Source: Natrononativus amylolyticus
Lineage (GTDB): Archaea > Halobacteriota > Halobacteria > Halobacteriales > Natrialbaceae
Direction of reading: 5' to 3'
NCBI RefSeq assembly: GCF_024362525.1
Contig: NZ_CP101458.1
Coordinates: forward strand, 868,001 to 932,000
DNA: 64,000 nucleotides
A program made the position numbers and the translations under genes. This document shows, in pieces, positions 1 through 63,052 of the stretch; within the stretch, counting starts at the first letter, position 1; each line of letters opens with the position of its first letter. The notes under the pieces are model-generated. The model had not been told where the DNA came from. It saw nothing but the letters and a program-made list of their open reading frames with translations, and did no database searches.

Positions 1-78
1 GGTGTCCCGGCGCTCAGAAGCGCCGAATTCGGACGTCTCGAGACTCGACGGCGGCGACGAGCGTACCACGAAGGGAGA

Positions 79-90
79 AAGTATATCAGT
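79..90 (+). promoter_or_regulatory. Candidate TATA box of lonB
   Basis: An AT-rich stretch reading gtatat at 81-86 stands out in a GC-rich background about 40 bases before the lonB start codon. Its position and composition fit a haloarchaeal TATA element that would give a leader of roughly 15 bases. Bases 4-30 upstream hold a short stem-loop (ggcgct/agcgcc), which may belong to the neighbouring gene off the window. No promoter mapping is available, so this is inference. Confidence 0.45.
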
Positions 91-126
91 CGCAATCCCT
101 TCGGTTCCGGTACTGAACAGAGTTCT

Positions 127-2358
127 ATGAGTAACGATACGAACGTTGACGACGCCCCCGAAGACGCCGTCCGGGACGACCCCACCGAGGAGTCCGGGCG
201 GCGTTCGGAGGAGACCCGGTCGCCGCCCGAGGAGCCCGGCGACGGGGCCGACGTCGACGACCAGTTCGAGGAGGCAGCCGTCGAAACCGACGAGCCACTC
301 GAGGAGGCAGACGACCGTGGTGACGACCCGTTCGAGGGAGACGGACTCGAGTCGGAAACCGACGAGTCCGCCGAACGGGACGAAGAGGACGACGTCGAAA
401 CCGTCGAGGATCTCGGCAGCACCGTCGAGGTCGATCCCGAGGTGGAGATCGACGAATCGATCGCCGAGGACGATCTGCTGGGGGGACTCAAGATCGACTC
501 GACGGGCGACATCGAGGTTCCGGATCGCCTCGTCGACCAGGTCATCGGTCAGGACGAGGCTCGAGACATCATCATCAAGGCGGCCAAGCAACGGCGCCAC
601 GTGATGATGATCGGCTCGCCGGGGACCGGGAAGTCGATGCTGGCGAAGGCGATGAGCCAGCTGCTCCCGAAGGAGGACCTCCAGGACGTTCTCGTCTACC
701 ACAACCCCGACGACGGCAACGAGCCGAAGGTCCGCACCGTCCCCGCGGGCAAGGGCGAACAGATCATCGACGCCCACAAGGAGGAGGCCCGAAAGCGCAA
801 CCAGATGCGCTCGATCCTGATGTGGATCATCATCGCGATCATTATCGGGTACGCCATCCTCACGACCAACATCCTGCTCGGCATCCTCGCTGCGGGTATC
901 GTCTGGCTGATCTTCCGCTACACCTCCCGCGGCACGGACGCGATGGTGCCCAACATGATCGTCAACAACGGCGAGCAGCGCACCGCGCCGTTCGAGGACG
1001 CCACGGGCGCCCACGCCGGGGCACTGCTCGGCGACGTCCGCCACGACCCGTTCCAGTCCGGCGGCATGGAGACGCCGTCTCACGACCGCGTCGAGCCGGG
1101 CTCGATCCACAAGTCGAACAAGGGCGTGCTGTTCGTCGACGAGATCAACACGCTCGACGTCCGCACCCAGCAGAAGCTGATGACCGCGATCCAGGAGGGC
1201 GAGTTCGCCATCACCGGCCAGTCCGAGCGCTCCTCGGGCGCGATGGTCCAGACCGAGCCCGTCCCCTGTGACTTCATCATGATCGCGGCGGGGAACCTGG
1301 ACGCGATGGAGAACATGCACCCCGCGCTGCGCTCGCGGATCAAGGGCTACGGCTACGAGGTGTACATGGACGACACCATCGACGACACCCCCGAGATGCG
1401 CCGCAAGTACGCCCGGTTCATCGCACAGGAGGTCGAACGCGACGGGCGACTCCCCCACTTCACCCGCGAGGCCGTCGAGGAGGTCATCCTCGAGGCCAAA
1501 CGCCGTGCGGGCCGCAAGGAGCACCTGACGCTTCACTTCCGAAACCTCGGCGGACTCGTCCGCGTGGCCGGCGACATCGCCCGCGCCGAGGACGCCGAGT
1601 TCACCACTCGCGACCACGTCCTGCAGGCGAAAGACCGCTCGCGCTCGATCGAACAGCAACTCGCCGACGACTACATCGAGCGCCGCAAGGACTACGAGCT
1701 GCAGGTCACCCAGGACGGCGTCGAGGGCCGGGTCAACGGACTCGCCGTCATGGGCGAAGACTCGGGGATCATGCTGCCCGTGATGGCCGAGATCGCGCCC
1801 GCGCAGGGTCAGGGTCAGGTCATCGCCACGGGACAGCTCAAAGAGATGGCCGAGGAGTCCGTCCAGAACGTCTCGGCGATCATCAAGAAGTTCTCGGACG
1901 TCAACCTCTCCGAGAAGGACGTCCACATCCAGTTCGTTCAGGCCGGCCAGCAGGGCGTCGACGGCGACTCCGCCTCGATCACGGTGGCGACCGCCGTCAT
2001 CTCCGCACTGGAGGACATCCCGGTCGACCAGTCGGTCGCCATGACCGGCTCGCTCTCCGTGCGAGGGGACGTGCTCCCGGTCGGCGGCGTCACCCACAAG
2101 ATCGAGGCCGCCGCGAAAGCCGGCTGCACGAAGGTCATCATCCCCAAGACGAACGAACAGGACGTGATGATCGAAGACGAGTACAAGGAGATGATCGAGA
2201 TCATCCCCTGTGACAACATCAGCGAGGTGCTCGAGGTCGCCCTCATCGGCGAACCCGAGAAGGACTCGCTGCTCGACCGCTTAAAGCAGATCACCGGCTC
2301 GGCGTTCGAGGGACAGGGTCAGGTTGGCACCGGCGGCTCGAACCCGAGCCCGCAGTAG
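127..2358 (+). CDS. lonB: Membrane-anchored archaeal Lon protease (LonB)
   Basis: ATP-dependent serine protease of the archaeal LonB type, which degrades membrane and soluble proteins at the cytoplasmic face of the membrane. The 743-residue product opens with about 110 very acidic residues. Walker A (GSPGTGKS) lies near residues 163-170. Two adjacent transmembrane helices at about 233-268 are inserted between Walker A and Walker B (VLFVDE, near 334), which is diagnostic of LonB. The Ser-Lys catalytic dyad is visible as S615 (GDSAS) and K658 (THKIEAA), 43 residues apart as in other Lon proteases. LonB is essential in haloarchaea and controls carotenoid synthesis (family knowledge). A CPBP protease gene follows after 6 bases and is probably cotranscribed. 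Confidence 0.96.
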
Positions 2359-54041: not shown

Positions 54042-54653
54042 TCACCGCTTCGTCTTCAACGTCGCGAACACCCGCTCGCCGTACACGGCGACGCTCTCCT
54101 CTCCCGCCTCGAGCGCGCGGACCCAGTTCACGTACGCCGTGAAAGTGCCGAAATCGACGTCCTGCGTCTCGAGGACGGTGGCGTCGAGCGTCGGCGGATC
54201 GTCTGTCGCGAGGACGTACTGCGCGTACGCCCCCGCGACGAACCCGACGCCGCGCAGGACGCCGTTCTCGGGCGGGGAGGCGACGTACGCGAGGTAGAGA
54301 TACGGGTCGTCGCGCTCGAGGCGGTCGACGTCGAGACCGGCCGACTCGAGCGCCGTACCGAAGGAGGCGCTGTCGTCGACGGGGGCGTCCAGCCCGGATT
54401 CTATCCCTCGCTCGTACTCGTCGGCGAACTCGCGGACCGGGAGGTCGGGGCGGACGCCGTCGACCGGGATGTGCTCCTCGACGGGTTCCGGCCGCTCCTC
54501 GTACCCCTCGTCGTACTCGGTCGGGCAGCCCGCGAGCGCGACCGGTGCGGCGGCGACGAGCGCGAGAACCGCTCGGCGCGTCGCGAGCGGGCGCTCTCGA
54601 GGCGTACCGCTCGCGTCGGCATCGTCGCGGTCGGCCGTCCGTGACGGGTCCAT
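54042..54653 (-). CDS. Tat-exported lipoprotein of unknown function
   Basis: A 203-residue protein with a twin-arginine signal (TRRAVLALVAAA, 25-36) and a lipobox ending ALAGC with C43. The mature part is acidic and mostly helical (FADEYERGIESGL, GLDVDRLERDDPYLYLAYV), as usual for haloarchaeal cell-surface proteins. It has no domain that I recognise. Divergent from the Na+/H+ antiporter gene. Confidence 0.78.
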   Translation of the reverse strand: MDPSRTADRDDADASGTPRERPLATRRAVLALVAAAPVALAGCPTEYDEGYEERPEPVEEHIPVDGVRPDLPVREFADEYERGIESGLDAPVDDSASFGTALESAGLDVDRLERDDPYLYLAYVASPPENGVLRGVGFVAGAYAQYVLATDDPPTLDATVLETQDVDFGTFTAYVNWVRALEAGEESVAVYGERVFATLKTKR

Positions 54654-54744
54654 TGCTCACCCCCCTACGCCGAGTCGGCGCAAAAACGTCGTCCCGGTCG
54701 TCGCAAGCGGCCGGTTTATCGGACTGTTCGGGGTAGGACGCCGG

Positions 54745-56049
54745 ATGGCACTCGAGGGGTTCGTCGTCGGGCTGCTGGTCGCAGGACTCGCGATCCTCGC
54801 GCTCGTCGTCCTGACGCGACTCGTCGACGAGCGCCCGCTCTCGCTGCCGATCGTCTACCTCGCTCTCGGCGCGGCGGCGTTCACGGCGGCGCCAGCACTT
54901 CCCTACCCCGATCCGATCGAGTTCGCCGACGAGGCCGAGCGGCTGACCGAACTCGGCGTGATCATCGCGCTGATGGGTGCCGGCCTCAAGGTTGGCCGGC
55001 CGCCGGGCTGGCCGGCCTGGGAGTCGACCGTTCGGCTGCTCGCGATCACGATGCCGCTGTCGATCGCGGGCGCCGCGACACTCGGTTGGGCCGTCGGCGG
55101 GCTGGTCCTCCCGACGGCGCTCCTCTTAGGAGCCGTGATCGCACCGACCGATCCGGTTCTCGCCTCGGAGGTGCAGGTCGAGGCCCCCGACCGGCAGCGA
55201 GAGCGCGCGCTCGAGTCGGAGGCCGACCCCGGTGCGGACGGCTCGGAAGTCGACCACAGCTCCGAGACCGAGGGTTCGGACGAGGTCCGCTTCGCGCTCA
55301 CCTCCGAGGCCGGACTCAACGACGGGCTCGCCTTTCCGTTCACCTACCTCGCGGTGCTCGTCGCGCTCGTCGGCTACGCCCCCGGGCGGTGGCTCGGGGA
55401 GTGGCTCCTCGTCTTCGTCGCCTACAAGCTCGTCGTCGGCCTCCTCGGCGGCCTCGTCGTCGGCTGGCTGCTCGCGCGACTCGTCTTTCGGTTCTCCGCG
55501 GAGTCACCGCTCTCGAGATCGGTACAGGGGCTTGAGGCCGTCGCGGGAACGCTGATCGCCTACGCGGCGGTCGAACTGGTCGGCGGCTACGGCTTCATCG
55601 CGGTGTTCGTCGCCGCGGTGACGATCCGGGAGTACGAGCGCAACCACGAGTACCACGAGGCGCTCCACGGGGTCGCCGAGATGGGCGAGCAGCTACTGAT
55701 GGTGGCGATCATGGTCCTGTTCGGCGGCGCGTTGGCCGACGGCTTGCTTTCGGCGCTGACGTGGGAGGCCGTTCTCGTCGGGCTCGGCATCCTCTTCGTC
55801 GTCCGGCCGCTCGCCGGGCTGATCGGACTGATCGGATTCGATCACGGCTGGCGCGAGCGCGCCGTTATCTCGACGTTCGGAATCCGCGGCATCGGCTCGT
55901 TCTACTACCTCTCGTGGGCCCTGAACACCGCGCCGTTTCGAAACGCCGAGTTGCTGTGGTCGATCGTCGGCTTCGTCGTCCTCGTCTCGGTCGTCGTCCA
56001 CGGGATCGCGGCGAGCCCGGTGATGCGGTGGCTCGCCGGCAAGCGGTAG
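54745..56049 (+). CDS. CPA1-family Na+/H+ antiporter (NhaP type)
   Basis: A 434-residue transporter with about 12 membrane helices. Family motifs include GAVIAPTDPVLASE (TDPV in helix 5) and SEAGLNDGLAFPF (the ND pair of the ion-binding site). The 40-residue acidic loop between them (about 155-190) is probably cytosolic and haloadapted. The function is export of Na+ in exchange for H+, which helps maintain low cytoplasmic Na+. Confidence 0.9.
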   Translation: MALEGFVVGLLVAGLAILALVVLTRLVDERPLSLPIVYLALGAAAFTAAPALPYPDPIEFADEAERLTELGVIIALMGAGLKVGRPPGWPAWESTVRLLAITMPLSIAGAATLGWAVGGLVLPTALLLGAVIAPTDPVLASEVQVEAPDRQRERALESEADPGADGSEVDHSSETEGSDEVRFALTSEAGLNDGLAFPFTYLAVLVALVGYAPGRWLGEWLLVFVAYKLVVGLLGGLVVGWLLARLVFRFSAESPLSRSVQGLEAVAGTLIAYAAVELVGGYGFIAVFVAAVTIREYERNHEYHEALHGVAEMGEQLLMVAIMVLFGGALADGLLSALTWEAVLVGLGILFVVRPLAGLIGLIGFDHGWRERAVISTFGIRGIGSFYYLSWALNTAPFRNAELLWSIVGFVVLVSVVVHGIAASPVMRWLAGKR

Positions 56050-56079: not shown

Positions 56080-57393
56080 TCACCGCTGCTCGAGCACCGT
56101 TCCCTCGTCGCCGACGACGAGTCCACGACCGCCCTCGAGCGCGATCCCCCGGAGGAGTCCCGGCGCGCTCGTCGCGATCCGTTCCCAGTCGGCGGCCGGA
56201 CCGCGGCGCTCCGCGATGCCGCCCGCGTCGTCACAGACCGCGACGCCGCCGTCGTCTCGAGCGACCCCCGTCAGTGCCGCCTCGCCGACTCGCTCGGGCG
56301 TCCACGCGTCTCCGTCGTACCGGTGAACGACGCCCGCGTCCGTGGCGACGAGGCAGTCGTCGGGAGCCGCCGGCGCGAGCGCCGTGAGGGTGCCGTCGGC
56401 GCCCTCGAGTCCGACCCGCTCGAACGTTCGGCCGCCATCCTCGCTGCGGAAGACGCCGTCGTTCGTGTCACAGCAGTAGCCGACCTCGCCGGCGAACGCG
56501 ACGTCGGTGAGGCTCGAGCCGCTGCCCGGTTTCACTGGCTCCCCCCAGACGAGATCGCCGTCGCGGTATCGCCCGCGCAACACCTCCCCGGAGCCGTTGA
56601 TCACGAGGACGGTTTCGTCTCCCTCGATGCCGGAAACCGCGACCCCGGTCAGGTTGTCCGTCAGGTCGTTCGGCGCGGAATGGTCGACGTGGCGGCCGGT
56701 GTCGACCTCGAGGCGGCCGACCGCGCCGTTGTCGCCGGCCATCCAGACGATTTTCCCGTCGGCGGTGGGGTCGACCCCGTAGAGAGTTTCGGCGTTCGCG
56801 CCAGGGCCGTCCTCGAGGACGGTCGTCCACCCCTCATCCCCGCTCGCGACCACGACACCGTCACCGCCGACGGCGACGGCCCCGCCTCGCGCGAGCGCGG
56901 CGCCGAACAGCGGCGCGGCGGTCGGCGCCTCGGCTCCCGTCCACCGCGGCTCTCGAGTCGGCAGTGTGTCCTCGTCGGTCCCCGACGACTCGCCCCCGGT
57001 CAGCCGGTCGTCGTCCGTCTCGGCGGCCCGACCCGCGGTGTCCGCGGGCCCGGGTGGTGTCCCCCGTCGCTCCGCGCTCGAGGTGGTCGGAGCGCGGGTG
57101 TGGTCCGACGTCTCCGGTGGCGTCGTCGATTCGTCGGACGACTCCGCAGCCGGGTTCGGGGACGCGCCCGTCGTCGGCCCGCCGTGGGCGAGGTACAGCC
57201 CCACGGGCGGCAAGACGTAACTCGCGATCGCCAGCGCGGCGAACCAGCGGTGAACGAACGTCAGCATCCCGAACCCGGTCAGCCCCGCCGTCGAGACCCC
57301 GTGGATCCAGGTCCTCGAGTACCGACGAACGAAGTCGACGACCCCCTCGGCGTCACCGAGTTCGCGGCCGGTCGCGGTCGAGGACGTTTCCAT
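56080..57393 (-). CDS. Membrane protein with WD40/BNR-like beta-propeller domain
   Basis: A 437-residue protein. It begins with two short helices near 36-52 and 55-72 (STAGLTGFGMLTFVH, FAALAIASYVLPPVGLYLA) and continues with a Pro/Ser/Thr-rich disordered linker of about 80 residues. The remainder (about 150-437) is a beta-propeller with BNR-type turns such as SEDGGRTFERVGLEG and repeated GVA/VVATDAGVV strands. An extracytoplasmic propeller on a membrane anchor is suggested. Function unknown. The start at 57393 was preferred. Confidence 0.72.
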   Translation of the reverse strand: METSSTATGRELGDAEGVVDFVRRYSRTWIHGVSTAGLTGFGMLTFVHRWFAALAIASYVLPPVGLYLAHGGPTTGASPNPAAESSDESTTPPETSDHTRAPTTSSAERRGTPPGPADTAGRAAETDDDRLTGGESSGTDEDTLPTREPRWTGAEAPTAAPLFGAALARGGAVAVGGDGVVVASGDEGWTTVLEDGPGANAETLYGVDPTADGKIVWMAGDNGAVGRLEVDTGRHVDHSAPNDLTDNLTGVAVSGIEGDETVLVINGSGEVLRGRYRDGDLVWGEPVKPGSGSSLTDVAFAGEVGYCCDTNDGVFRSEDGGRTFERVGLEGADGTLTALAPAAPDDCLVATDAGVVHRYDGDAWTPERVGEAALTGVARDDGGVAVCDDAGGIAERRGPAADWERIATSAPGLLRGIALEGGRGLVVGDEGTVLEQR

Positions 57394-57494
57394 GAGAGAA
57401 CCAGGCGGCGCCGACTGAAAAGACACGAGCCTGGATGTGCCGAGTCACGGCGGAATCTTCACCGTTATACCGTCCGAGCCGAAACGACGACCGT

Positions 57495-58322
57495 ATGCGC
57501 GAGGAGGCGACTGCGTTCGTGCCGGGCCACATCACGGGCTTTTTCAGCAGCCACCCGGACGACGATCCGACGAAAGCCGGCTCTCGAGGCGCCGGGCTCA
57601 CCCTCACCGACGGCGTCGAGGTGACGGTCGAACCGGCCGACGAGCCGGCGGTGTACCTCGAGGGCGACCCCGTCGAAATCGAGCCCGTCGAGACCGTCCT
57701 CGAGACGCTCGACGCGCCCGCCCGCGTGCGAGCCGCCTCGGACCTCCCGCTCGGTGCCGGTTTCGGCGTCTCGGGGGCGGTCGCGCTGGGGACGGCCCTC
57801 GCCGCCAACCGCGTCTTCGATCGACGGCTCTCGGTGAACGAACTCGTAACCGTCGCCCACGGCGCGGAGGTCCGGGCCGGGACCGGCCTGGGCGACGTCG
57901 TCGCCCAGGCTCGCGGCGGCGTCCCGATCCGGCTCGAGCCCGGCGCGCCGGCGCACAACGAACTCGACGGGATTCCGGCGCGGGCTCGCGTCGAGTACGT
58001 CTCCTTCGGCGAACTCTCGACCGCCGAGGTGCTCTCGGGCGACACCGACCGACTGACTCACGCCGGGACGCGGGCGCTCTCGAGGGTCGTCGAGGAGCCG
58101 ACGCTGCTGTCGTTCATGTTCGCCTCCCGGGCGTTCGCCCGCGAGGCCGAACTGGTGACCGACTCGGTCGCCGAGGCGCTGGCGGACGTCGCCGCCGTCG
58201 ACGGCCAGGCGTCGATGGCGATGCTCGGCGACACCGTCTTCGCGCTCGGGACGGGGCTGTCGGACGCGGGCTACGAGCCGGCCGTCTGTGCGACGCATCC
58301 GGCGGGTGCGATGCTGAAGTAG
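57495..58322 (+). CDS. Pantoate kinase
   Basis: GHMP-family kinase that phosphorylates pantoate to 4-phosphopantoate, replacing bacterial PanC/CoaA steps in archaea. The 275-residue protein has FVPGHITGFF near the N terminus (8-17), the GHMP glycine-rich loop LPLGAGFGVSGAVAL (84-98) and a C-terminal CATHPAGAML. The next enzyme is at 62.3 kb. The ATG at 57495 starts at the conserved domain; the extended reading is not supported. Confidence 0.92.
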   Translation: MREEATAFVPGHITGFFSSHPDDDPTKAGSRGAGLTLTDGVEVTVEPADEPAVYLEGDPVEIEPVETVLETLDAPARVRAASDLPLGAGFGVSGAVALGTALAANRVFDRRLSVNELVTVAHGAEVRAGTGLGDVVAQARGGVPIRLEPGAPAHNELDGIPARARVEYVSFGELSTAEVLSGDTDRLTHAGTRALSRVVEEPTLLSFMFASRAFAREAELVTDSVAEALADVAAVDGQASMAMLGDTVFALGTGLSDAGYEPAVCATHPAGAMLK

Positions 58323-58580: not shown

Positions 58581-58609
58581 GATGGGGTTCAGTTGTGCGG
58601 TCGAATCGA

Positions 58610-61438
58610 ATGTCTTCCGTAAAAGAGTTTCACGACACACTGTTCTGGCTGTACGAACACTACGTCGGCGAGCCGGACTCCTCGAAGGACGTCTACGGCT
58701 ACTGGCTGTTCATCGTCGGCTACGTCGTCGGGGCGGCCGGCGTGTTCACCTTCGTCGTCGGCTACGCCGGCGCGATCGACTCTCACTCGCTGATCCGGGT
58801 CTCCGGCATCACGGCCGCCGGCGGACTCGCGCTCCTCCTGTTCGGGATCGTGCTCATGCTCCCCGTCCGCAAGCGAGGGATTCAGGCGAGCGCCGTCGGG
58901 CTCCTCGTCTCGCTGGTCGGCGTCGCCTCGTTCGGCCTGGTCTACCCGAGCGACTGGCGCGGGTTCGGCGAGGACTACAGCGTCGAGGTGACGGCGGTGT
59001 ACGCGACCGGGGTCGCGATCATCGCGGGCGTCACCGCGCTCGTCCCCATCGTCACCGGCCAGAAGGGGAAGTACGTCGCCGAGGAGGGCGCGACCGACGA
59101 GCCGGACGTCCTCACGGGCGACGCCCTCGAGGGCGCGCAGTTCGCCGTCTTCCGGGACGAGGAGGGCAACTGGCGCTGGCACGTCCTCCACCTCGAGGCG
59201 GTCGCTGCCAGCGAGGACAGTTCGCTGACCCGACCCGCGGCCGAGGCGGGGATCGAGCGGGTCAAATCGAGGATCGGCTCGGCCGGACTGCTCGAGCTGA
59301 CGACGTCGGCGTTCCGGCTCTACGAGGACCGCGAGGGCAACTGGCAGTGGACGCTCGCCCGCGACGACGGCAGCGTGGTCGCGACCTGCACGGAGGAATT
59401 CCCCGAGCGCGACGGCGCCGAGGAGTCGGTGAGCTTCCTCAAGGACCGCGGACCGACCGCCGACACGATCGAGATCGACGGCGCCGCGTTCACCTACGCC
59501 GAGGAGCGCGACAGCTGGCACTGGACGCTGCTCGACGCCGATCGGACCCCCCTGGCCGAGAGCGACGGCGGCTACGCGACGCAGGCTCGAGCCGAGTCGG
59601 CCGCGGCGACGTTCGCCGAGCGGTTCGACGGCAGCCGGCTGCTCGCGATCGACCACGTCGGCGTCGAACTCTACGAACGCGGGGAGGGCTGGTCCTGGCG
59701 GTTCGTCGACCGCGACGACGACCTCCTCGCAGCGAGTACCGCGGCCGTCGACTCGCGGCGAGACGCCGAAGCCGCCGCCGAAGCGGTGCTCGCCGAACTC
59801 GAGTCCGCGGCGATCACGGTCGCCGGCGAGCCGACCTACGAGCTGTACGACGCCGGCGGGTGGCGCTGGCGGCTGGTCGACGGGACCGAGCGCGTCGTCG
59901 CGCGGAACCCGCCGACGCTCGAGGGGCGAGACGCGGTGGCGAACGCGGCCGACCGGTTCGCCGCCCACGCCGCCGACGCCGAGGTCGTCGAGGTCGAGGA
60001 CGCCGAGTACGAGGTGTACCCGACCGAGCCCGAGACGACCGCCGCTGACGAGGTGGCGGAGGGCGCGGAACCGACGCCCGACTGGCACTGGCGGCTCGTC
60101 ACGGCCGACCGCGAGGTCGTTGCCGCGAGCACGGACGCCCACGCGGACGCCGAGGCGGCCGCCGCCGCGATCGACCGCGTGCGCGAGCAGGCGAGCGAGG
60201 CCGACCTCATCGAGTTCGAAAACGCCGCGTTCCAGGTGTACGAGGCCGACTCCGGCGAGTGGCGCTGGCGGCTGATCGACGAGGACGGAAACGTACTCGC
60301 CGACAGCGGCGAGGAGCACACCTCGCGGGGCGACGCCGCCGAGGCGATGATGACCCTCAAAGAGCAGGCGCCCGACGCCGAGTTGCTCGAGATAGACACC
60401 GCCGCGTTCGAGATCTTCGTCGACGGGGACGACCGCTGGGGCTGGCGGCTGATCGACGAGGGCGGCGCACTCGTCGCGGAGGACCCGGCGACCCATCCGA
60501 GCCGCGGGGCGGCCAGGGAGGCGATGGATCGACTGCTCGCACACCTCGAGTCGGAGGTTCGGACGATGGAGCGGGCGGCCTTCCAGGCCTACGCCGCGGG
60601 CGACTGGCACTGGCGGTTCGTCCTCCCCGCGGGCGAGGTGGTCGCGGTCAGCGACGGCCCGCACCCGACGCGCAACGAACTCGTCGAGAGCCTCGAGTCG
60701 GTCCGCGAGGCCGCGGCGGCCGGCCGGCTGTGTCCGATCGGCGACGTCTCGGTGCAGGTGTACGACGGCAGCGACTGGAGCTGGCGGCTGCTCGACCGCG
60801 ACCGGCAGCCGATCGCCGACGCGGCGGCCACCTACGGCGACCGCGAGGCGGCGATCGAGGCCGTCGAAACGCTCGGCGCGCACGCCGAGGACGCGCCGGT
60901 GTTCTCGATCGACGACGCCGCGATCCGCCTCCGGTACGGCCGGGGCTGGCGCTGGGATCTGATCGACGCCGACCGCGAGGTGATCGCGCGCGCGGCGAGC
61001 GGCGAGCGAAGCCGGGAAGACGCCGTCTGCGCCGTCGACGACGTTCGGCGCCTCGCCCCGATGGCCGGTCGGGTCGACTTCGACGTCGCCTCTTTCGAGC
61101 TGTTCGCCGACGAGGACGACCGCTGGGGCTGGCGGCTGTTCGACGAAGGGGGGCGAACCGTCGCGACCAGCACCGAGCGCTACCGCTCGCGGGAGGCCGC
61201 GGCGACGGCCCTCGAGGACGTCCGCGGGCTGATCGCCGACGCGAGCATCCTCGAACTCGACGGCGTCTCCTTCGAACTGCACGCCGCCGGAGACGGCTGG
61301 GTGTGGCGGCTGGTCGACAGACACGGAACCACCATGTCCGAGAGCACCCGGACCTACGAGACGCGGACGGACGCCCGCGAGGCGATGAACGCCGTTAAAG
61401 TCCACGCGCCGGACGGCTGGATCACGTTCACCGAGTGA
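58610..61438 (+). CDS. Membrane protein with 13 DUF1508/YegP-like repeats
   Basis: A 942-residue protein. Four membrane helices lie within about 28-160, followed by 13 tandem units of about 59 residues each (about 173-940). Each unit contains a W-x-W core: WRWHV, WQWTL, WHWTL, WSWRF, WRWRL, WHWRL, WRWRL, WGWRL, WHWRF, WSWRL, WRWDL, WGWRL and WVWRL. Each core is followed by a D-x-[DG]-[RE] turn and an Ala/Glu helix ending in a charged stretch. This is the DUF1508 (YegP/HVO_2922-like) fold, in which dimeric units pair strands; a chain of 13 is long. The role is unknown. Confidence 0.85.
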   Translation: MSSVKEFHDTLFWLYEHYVGEPDSSKDVYGYWLFIVGYVVGAAGVFTFVVGYAGAIDSHSLIRVSGITAAGGLALLLFGIVLMLPVRKRGIQASAVGLLVSLVGVASFGLVYPSDWRGFGEDYSVEVTAVYATGVAIIAGVTALVPIVTGQKGKYVAEEGATDEPDVLTGDALEGAQFAVFRDEEGNWRWHVLHLEAVAASEDSSLTRPAAEAGIERVKSRIGSAGLLELTTSAFRLYEDREGNWQWTLARDDGSVVATCTEEFPERDGAEESVSFLKDRGPTADTIEIDGAAFTYAEERDSWHWTLLDADRTPLAESDGGYATQARAESAAATFAERFDGSRLLAIDHVGVELYERGEGWSWRFVDRDDDLLAASTAAVDSRRDAEAAAEAVLAELESAAITVAGEPTYELYDAGGWRWRLVDGTERVVARNPPTLEGRDAVANAADRFAAHAADAEVVEVEDAEYEVYPTEPETTAADEVAEGAEPTPDWHWRLVTADREVVAASTDAHADAEAAAAAIDRVREQASEADLIEFENAAFQVYEADSGEWRWRLIDEDGNVLADSGEEHTSRGDAAEAMMTLKEQAPDAELLEIDTAAFEIFVDGDDRWGWRLIDEGGALVAEDPATHPSRGAAREAMDRLLAHLESEVRTMERAAFQAYAAGDWHWRFVLPAGEVVAVSDGPHPTRNELVESLESVREAAAAGRLCPIGDVSVQVYDGSDWSWRLLDRDRQPIADAAATYGDREAAIEAVETLGAHAEDAPVFSIDDAAIRLRYGRGWRWDLIDADREVIARAASGERSREDAVCAVDDVRRLAPMAGRVDFDVASFELFADEDDRWGWRLFDEGGRTVATSTERYRSREAAATALEDVRGLIADASILELDGVSFELHAAGDGWVWRLVDRHGTTMSESTRTYETRTDAREAMNAVKVHAPDGWITFTE

Positions 61439-62266: not shown

Positions 62267-63052
62267 GTGAGCGACCACGATCACGAAACCGTCCCGGCCG
62301 TCGTCGACCACGAAGACGAGATCCCGGAGGACCATCCGCGCTACCAGGACCTCCTCACCCGCCACCGGATCGAGGCGGGCGTCGAAAAGGGAATCACCCA
62401 CCTCCAGGGGATGCACGCCGAGGGGCGGGGCAGCGCCTTCGACTACCTGCTGGGCGAGGAGACGATCCCGAGCGCCGACGAGGCCGAGCGAGCGGCCGCC
62501 GCACAGCTCCTGCTCGCCGACCACCCGGTGCTCTCGGTCAACGGCAACGTCGCCGCCCTCGTCCCCGGCGAGATCGTCGACCTCGCGGCGGCCGTCGACG
62601 CCGATATCGAGGTCAACCTCTTCAACCGCACGCCCGAGCGCCTCGAGGCGATCGCCGACCACCTCCGAGAGCACGGTGCCGAGGAAGTCAGGGGGCTCGA
62701 GGCCGATGCGCGGATTCCGGGTCTCGAGCACGAACGCGCGAAGGTCGACGCCGCCGGTATTTACGAGGCGGACGTCGTGCTGGTGCCCCTCGAGGACGGC
62801 GACCGCGCCCAGGCGCTGTCGGCGATGGGCAAGACCGAGATCGTGATCGACCTCAACCCGCTGTCGCGCTCGCCGCGAGCCGCCGACGTTCCGATCGTCG
62901 ACAACGTGATCCGGGCGGTGCCGAACGTGACCGCCCACGCGCGGGAGCTGGCGGACGCAGACGAGGCCGAGTTACGGGGGATTCTCGAGGGGTTCGACCG
63001 GGAGGCGGCGCTCGAGGACGCAGAGGAGCGGATCAGGACCGGCGACCGGTAA
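62267..63052 (+). CDS. 4-phosphopantoate--beta-alanine ligase (phosphopantothenate synthetase)
   Basis: A 261-residue COG1701 enzyme that joins 4-phosphopantoate with beta-alanine using ATP to give 4'-phosphopantothenate. Motifs: HPRYQDLLTRHRIEAGVEKGI at the N terminus (split at 18-38), VNGNVAAL, EVNLFNRTPER, and TEIVIDLNPLSRSPR near 200. It acts directly after pantoate kinase (57.5 kb) and before CoaBC (29.9 kb). The start is a GTG; GTG at 62258 in the same frame is an alternative. Confidence 0.93.
   Translation: MSDHDHETVPAVVDHEDEIPEDHPRYQDLLTRHRIEAGVEKGITHLQGMHAEGRGSAFDYLLGEETIPSADEAERAAAAQLLLADHPVLSVNGNVAALVPGEIVDLAAAVDADIEVNLFNRTPERLEAIADHLREHGAEEVRGLEADARIPGLEHERAKVDAAGIYEADVVLVPLEDGDRAQALSAMGKTEIVIDLNPLSRSPRAADVPIVDNVIRAVPNVTAHARELADADEAELRGILEGFDREAALEDAEERIRTGDR

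Follow-up and report, generated by a model that had tools for sequence, protein, structure and literature searches.

Within a window of 64,000 nucleotides from the haloarchaeon Natrononativus amylolyticus (contig NZ_CP101458.1, positions 868,001 to 932,000), one gene encodes a protein in which 13 copies of the DUF1508 domain follow one another behind a membrane domain. To our knowledge, DUF1508 has no assigned function. The locus raises the question of how 13 such units are arranged relative to each other and to the membrane, and of why there are 13 of them.

The protein and its membrane domain

The open reading frame runs uninterrupted on the plus strand from 58595 to 61438, giving 947 residues if the possible GTG start at 58595 is used and 942 residues if translation begins at the likelier ATG at 58610. 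The protein is matched by Pfam DUF7139 (PF23600) at residues 15-157 (E 1.8e-39, 135 bits against a cut-off of 30), by Pfam DUF1508 (PF07411; E 1.7e-71, 236 bits against a cut-off of 22) and by NCBIfam HVO_2922 (NF041908), the last falling on 13 separate stretches (E 2.4e-82, 271 bits against a cut-off of 90). The hydropathy shows four hydrophobic helices between about residues 35 and 155, and helices are seen in the AlphaFold model as well. An earlier note, made from the letters of this DNA, had described 13 DUF1508 units on a four-helix anchor, and the Pfam, NCBIfam and hydropathy results confirm it. It is noted that the DUF1508 domain itself was already known; what is new is the membrane-anchored architecture with 13 units.

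In the 947-residue frame the W-x-W cores of units 1-7 are at residues 193, 250, 308, 366, 423, 497 and 556, and those of units 8-13 at residues 615, 671, 728, 785, 844 and 902. The core-to-core spacing is 56-59 residues, with the one exception of 74 residues across unit 6, where the hairpin loop is longer and acidic. Since at the DNA level the unit copies share only about 60-75% of their letters in most places, and no tandem repeat was reported by Tandem Repeats Finder, the repeat exists at the protein level only. A chance origin of the array is excluded by the above E-values together with the conservation in about 128 intact arrays, as discussed below.

For the loops of the DUF7139 domain, K+R is 2.6 in loop 2 versus 0.3 and 0.8 for loops 1 and 3. 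Because the positive charge sits in loop 2, the predicted topology is N-in/C-in, with the array on the cytosolic side of the membrane. While it had been left open before whether the array is cytosolic or surface-exposed, the positive-inside charge of the loops thus favours the former and speaks against the latter. The array contains 167 D/E versus 75 K/R and is strongly acidic, as is usual for cytosolic proteins of halophiles. The features are collected in Table 1.

Table 1. Positions of the array gene, its domains and units, and its two neighbouring enzyme genes, numbered from the first nucleotide of the window.
Feature	Position	Strand	Basis
Pantoate kinase (GHMP family), upstream neighbour, start from relatives	57495..58322, ORF from 57435	+	PF00288, synteny
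DUF7139 + 13 x DUF1508 protein, 942 aa	58610..61438	+	ORF, Pfam, NCBIfam
DUF7139 four-helix membrane domain, predicted N-in/C-in	58637..59065	+	PF23600, hydropathy, loop charges
Unit 1, predicted partner unit 13	59129..59299	+	NCBIfam, AlphaFold, structural alignment
Unit 2, predicted partner unit 12	59300..59473	+	AlphaFold, structural alignments of both models
Unit 3, partner unit 11 by extrapolation	59474..59647	+	AlphaFold; pooled co-variation
Unit 4, predicted partner unit 10	59648..59824	+	Structural alignments, both models
Unit 5, predicted partner unit 9	59825..59992	+	Structural alignments, both models
Unit 6, predicted partner unit 8	59993..60217	+	Structural alignments, both models
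Variable acidic insertion, first hairpin of unit 6	~60026-60079	+	Unit counts in orthologues
Unit 7, central apex, predicted unpaired	60218..60394	+	Conservation; lowest pLDDT among units
Unit 8, predicted partner unit 6	60395..60568	+	Structural alignments, both models
Unit 9, predicted partner unit 5	60569..60736	+	Structural alignments, both models
Unit 10, predicted partner unit 4	60737..60907	+	Structural alignments, both models
Unit 11, partner unit 3 by extrapolation	60908..61081	+	Pooled co-variation
Unit 12, predicted partner unit 2	61082..61258	+	Structural alignments, both models
Unit 13, predicted partner unit 1	61259..61435	+	Structural alignment, full-protein model
Phosphopantothenate/pantothenate synthetase, downstream neighbour, start inferred	62267..63052	+	PF02006, synteny

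Constancy and age of the array

Repeat arrays generally vary in unit number. Here, orthologues were drawn from 61 related genomes, from a scan of named genomes and from a wider sample of the order, with the units counted by a profile built from the window protein and its relatives, and the unit number is 13 in every intact full-length array (about 128 arrays from many haloarchaeal families). Directly, 117 open reading frames count as 13, while 12 further ones read 14 only since a loop insertion splits unit 6; counts of 14, 12 or 11 are explained by this loop, by missed units or by a contig end (the case of 11). Diverged second copies in the same genomes also have 13 units, as does a plasmid copy in Natrialba magadii that is annotated merely as "DUF1508 domain-containing protein", and in arrays broken by frameshifts the units still add up to about 13. 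Outside the haloarchaea, one non-exhaustive contig scan for a 13-unit relative returned only single or double units (two bacterial records). The earlier note had called for a survey of unit number among relatives, and such constancy was not foreseen in it.

The individual units can also be followed between species. Among 31 orthologues, the nearest neighbour of a unit in another species is the same-numbered unit in 393 of 403 cases (97.5%), with the mean identity being 56% at the same position across species versus 29% between units within one protein, and in the unit tree 7 of the 13 positions form exact clades. As the units keep their identities by position, the sampled haloarchaea bearing the array inherited it in complete form from their ancestor. 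The array is thus ancient and fixed in unit number, and the suggestion that it arose by old duplication and not by recent slippage holds, with the units grouping by position rather than by species. Slippage or an assembly artefact is ruled out by this positional identity and by the lack of a tandem repeat in the DNA.

Predicted pairing of the units

Two structures were predicted with AlphaFold, one for the full protein (model 1; mean pLDDT 85, pTM 0.59) and the other for an array-only orthologue from Halomarina halobia that is 43% identical (model 2; pLDDT 91.1, pTM 0.66), with the pTM values leaving the long-range placement of the units only moderately sure. By DSSP, each unit in the models consists of three strands, a helix and a short linking strand, which is the beta-beta-beta-alpha fold of YegP and HVO_2922. 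The units thus fold as DUF1508 domains, and neither the unfolded linkers nor the propeller that the earlier note had considered as contrary outcomes is present. Structural alignment to SO3888 (2k49) gives Z 15.0 over 111 residues at 1.9 A for model 1 and Z 14.8 for model 2, and that to YegP (2k8e) gives Z 14.8 and 15.0, respectively, the YegP and SO3888 alignments spanning 111-116 residues; for the HVO_2922 structure (6q2z) Z is 7.5-7.7.

YegP and SO3888 (UPF0339, tandem DUF1508) share with the models both the unit fold and the packing of two units on each other. In these small proteins, however, it is two neighbouring repeats that pack, whereas in the array 13 units would be paired across a hairpin and attached to a membrane domain. 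The unit pairing was read solely from the first and last aligned model residues of the structural alignments. In both models the alignments to two-repeat proteins use non-adjacent units, and the informative ranges join unit i with unit 14-i. For model 1 the ranges are 175..942 (units 1 and 13), 231..884 (2 and 12), 346..766 (4 and 10), 404..711 (5 and 9) and 463..648 (6 and 8), and for model 2 they are 61..702 (2 and 12), 179..585 (4 and 10), 235..527 (5 and 9) and 291..472 (6 and 8); the ranges of weaker structural matches likewise join i with 14-i. The pair of units 3 and 11 is spanned by no structural match in either model, and its pairing is extrapolated. Of all units, it is unit 7 that is predicted with the lowest pLDDT in both models, as is expected for a unit having no partner.

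The pairing was also examined by co-variation in 89 non-redundant sequences (about 57 effective), with the signal of residue pairs combined across corresponding positions of the units. Pairs compatible with the first beta hairpin are among the strongest of these pooled signals within units, which served as a control. Between units, the pairing of i with 14-i is above random unit matchings in 11 of 12 settings (p about 0.001-0.03) and also above sequential pairing, with the sequential pairings being near the random level; the preference persists without paralogues and under other sequence weights, with one setting giving p 0.057. Unpooled mean-field DCA on the about 57 effective sequences showed no preference for i+j=14 and no usable signal, and the palindromic similarity of unit conservation along the array is suggestive only (p 0.07). 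It should be noted that the two models share much of one alignment, which the co-variation set overlaps, and because AlphaFold saw this overlapping alignment the co-variation is not wholly independent of the models.

An alternative arrangement is that the units pair sequentially (1 with 2, 3 with 4) or not at all, so that the array is a long flexible or straight multivalent tether having 13 units by history only. This would be expected from YegP and SO3888, where neighbouring repeats pair, and the moderate pTM values leave room for it. If this arrangement is true, it would be difficult to see why both models align to YegP and SO3888 via i and 14-i rather than via i and i+1, why sequential pairings are close to random in the pooled co-variation, and why the number is invariantly 13 in about 128 arrays, which is hard to ascribe to history alone. 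We thus regard it as unlikely. By contrast, packing of the YegP type between units i and 14-i, giving a hairpin ladder of 6+1+6 units whose apex is the unpaired unit 7, is probable in view of the models and the pooled co-variation. Neither this folding back nor an unpaired central unit was foreseen by the earlier note.

Unit 7 is the most conserved unit, with a mean pairwise identity of 74% versus 42-60% for the other units in the 89 non-redundant sequences (81% in the first orthologue set). It has an invariant D-S at positions +14 and +15 from the core and G at +16; together with R at core+1 and a T and an E in the helix, these residues are conserved in unit 7 and not in the other units. The strongest pooled inter-unit mutual-information signals fall in the segment from core+14 to +18, which holds the D-S-G of unit 7, and this segment corresponds to ADSG of the stand-alone HVO_2922. 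HVO_2922, a protein of 60 residues from Haloferax volcanii that was solved with two chains, is the closest solved sequence relative of a unit and matches unit 7 best (E 7e-16 with the array profile; 40% identity by Foldseek); unlike the array protein, it is a single domain with no membrane part. Because of the conserved D-S-G, the signal-rich segment in which it lies and the match to the two-chain HVO_2922, unit 7 plausibly has a pairing surface that stays open to a second molecule. The Natrononativus genome also encodes, in a 199-residue frame (L075:2560-3156), an Amphi-Trp domain together with a single DUF1508 unit, and this protein is a candidate to pair with unit 7. No partner of the array was found in this analysis.

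Genomic context, related proteins and function

In the literature searched, DUF7139 was unmentioned and DUF1508 appeared only in two unrelated papers, while HVO_2922 was mentioned solely among cited structures, for use as a spike-in standard or in a list of induced genes. In a viral structure library, only short phage DUF1508 proteins were convincing matches.

Pantoate kinase and phosphopantothenate synthetase are consecutive enzymes of the archaeal route to coenzyme A, and the array gene sits on the same strand between their genes in most array-bearing genomes, in several families. In the set of 61 genomes, the kinase is just upstream in 26 of the 33 array-bearing genomes and the synthetase downstream in 28 of them, while in 20 of the 28 array-less genomes the two enzyme genes are direct neighbours. 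Since array-less genomes mostly keep the enzymes adjacent, the array was gained into or lost from the coenzyme A cluster, and since the gene is absent from several genera of one family, the array is dispensable there and not universally needed. The gene order makes co-expression with the coenzyme A genes likely and a role in coenzyme A synthesis possible. It could be proposed that the arm gathers the two enzymes at the membrane or senses the state of the pathway, as the tandem placement would suggest. Evidently, however, the pathway runs without the array in the 20 genomes having adjacent enzymes; diverged 13-unit copies occur on plasmids or elsewhere, other families have the array away from the enzyme pair (L110, L118, L121, L123), and shared transcription alone would account for the placement. 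An accessory or scaffold role of this kind is thus quite doubtful. Further upstream in the window, 56080-57426 on the minus strand encodes a protein of 448 residues with repeated short motifs, beta-propeller-like and without a Pfam match, which adjoins a Na+/H+ exchanger (54469-56049, plus strand).

By architecture, the nearest solved array is the extension of the baseplate protein Cis12/All3315 of a contractile injection system, which likewise has tandem DUF1508-like units and leads to a membrane; differently from the array protein, it is part of a baseplate protein, lacks DUF7139 and has weak sequence similarity to the array. Units 10-13 of the array profile match four consecutive units at residues 960-1161 of Cis12/All3315 (7b5h chain AD; E 3.2e-6), and the structural alignment of the models to it joins residues 617 to 1161, i.e., non-adjacent units. 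In Algo12 (7aeb) the DUF1508-like match at 601-640 has only E 0.29. In Anabaena the Cis12 extension forms a wide connector from the baseplate to the thylakoid membrane (PMC8894136), and the analogy suggests that folded-back DUF1508 arrays can serve as struts near membranes. That the array is itself the membrane anchor or foot of such a system, as this profile match, the use of non-adjacent units and the contact with the thylakoid membrane could be taken to mean, is very improbable, and we reject it as a Cis12-like component, because its presence is not significantly associated with that of sheath genes (of the 61 genomes, those having one are 9 with and 3 without the array, p 0.12, and the genome studied here has no sheath match) and because a different anchor, the six-helix Hbor_38620, has been proposed for the haloarchaeal system (PMC11566945).

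DUF7139 also occurs in other haloarchaeal proteins that have the same membrane domain and different cytosolic parts, only the array protein having 13 units, and the domain appears to serve several cytosolic systems. In a shorter paralogue the number of DUF1508 units is five, as Pfam showed for each of five proteins examined, possibly arranged as a 2+1+2 fold-back; this family is present at L059, L060, L062-L065, L185, L187 and L189-L194, and in some members the stretch from the membrane part to the units weakly matches coiled-coil profiles. Another paralogue (305 aa) lies just upstream of volactin (PF25216), the haloarchaeal actin homologue, at L074:2971-4994 in the genome studied here, and adjoins it in 45 of 48 genomes; the text of the volactin paper does not mention this neighbour. 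The array protein as a partner of volactin is rejected, since that place is occupied by this different paralogue and the array gene is in the coenzyme A cluster. A third paralogue in this genome (L073:2986-3897) carries DUF7140 at its end, a short domain with cysteines that possibly binds metal. Weaker DUF7139 matches, mostly of 250-300 residues, occur outside the order in the same phylum (families f19, f21 and f22), so the domain is apparently older than its fusion to DUF1508.

Taking these results together, we lean, by a little more than even chances, towards the reading that the array protein forms a rigid arm of fixed length in the cytosol, anchored in the membrane, folded back as a ladder and having a pairing head at its tip. 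In this model, the DUF7139 helices would hold the arm in the cytoplasmic membrane and the 13 units would fold back as an antiparallel ladder, with unit i packing on unit 14-i like the repeats of YegP or SO3888 and unit 7 being left at the tip with no intramolecular partner. With a dedicated partner for each flanking unit, the loss or gain of a single unit would break the register, and the fold-back model would in this way account for a number that is both odd and invariant, as 6+1+6 here and perhaps as 2+1+2 in the five-unit paralogue. Unit 7 would have retained the ancestral surface for pairing and would dock to another DUF1508 surface, that of unit 7 in a second molecule or that of a small protein with a single DUF1508 domain, so that the arm would fix or cross-link something at a defined distance from the membrane. 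We infer a tether or strut function, and the scaffold or binding ruler suggested before remains a plausible reading. More specifically, though only as a tentative idea that is less probable than the general reading, the protein could be a molecular ruler formed by intramolecular zipping, where each unit i has evolved for unit 14-i and the central head is self-complementary, with two arms meeting tip to tip, or holding a DUF1508 protein of one domain, at a constant distance from the membrane.

If this model is true, the array would clearly exemplify a protein arm whose length is defined by fold-back pairing, with the unit number fixed at one odd value across an archaeal class for a structural reason that can be tested. 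DUF7139 would then be a general membrane platform for cytosolic arms, and DUF1508 would be linked to the membrane connectors of contractile injection systems.
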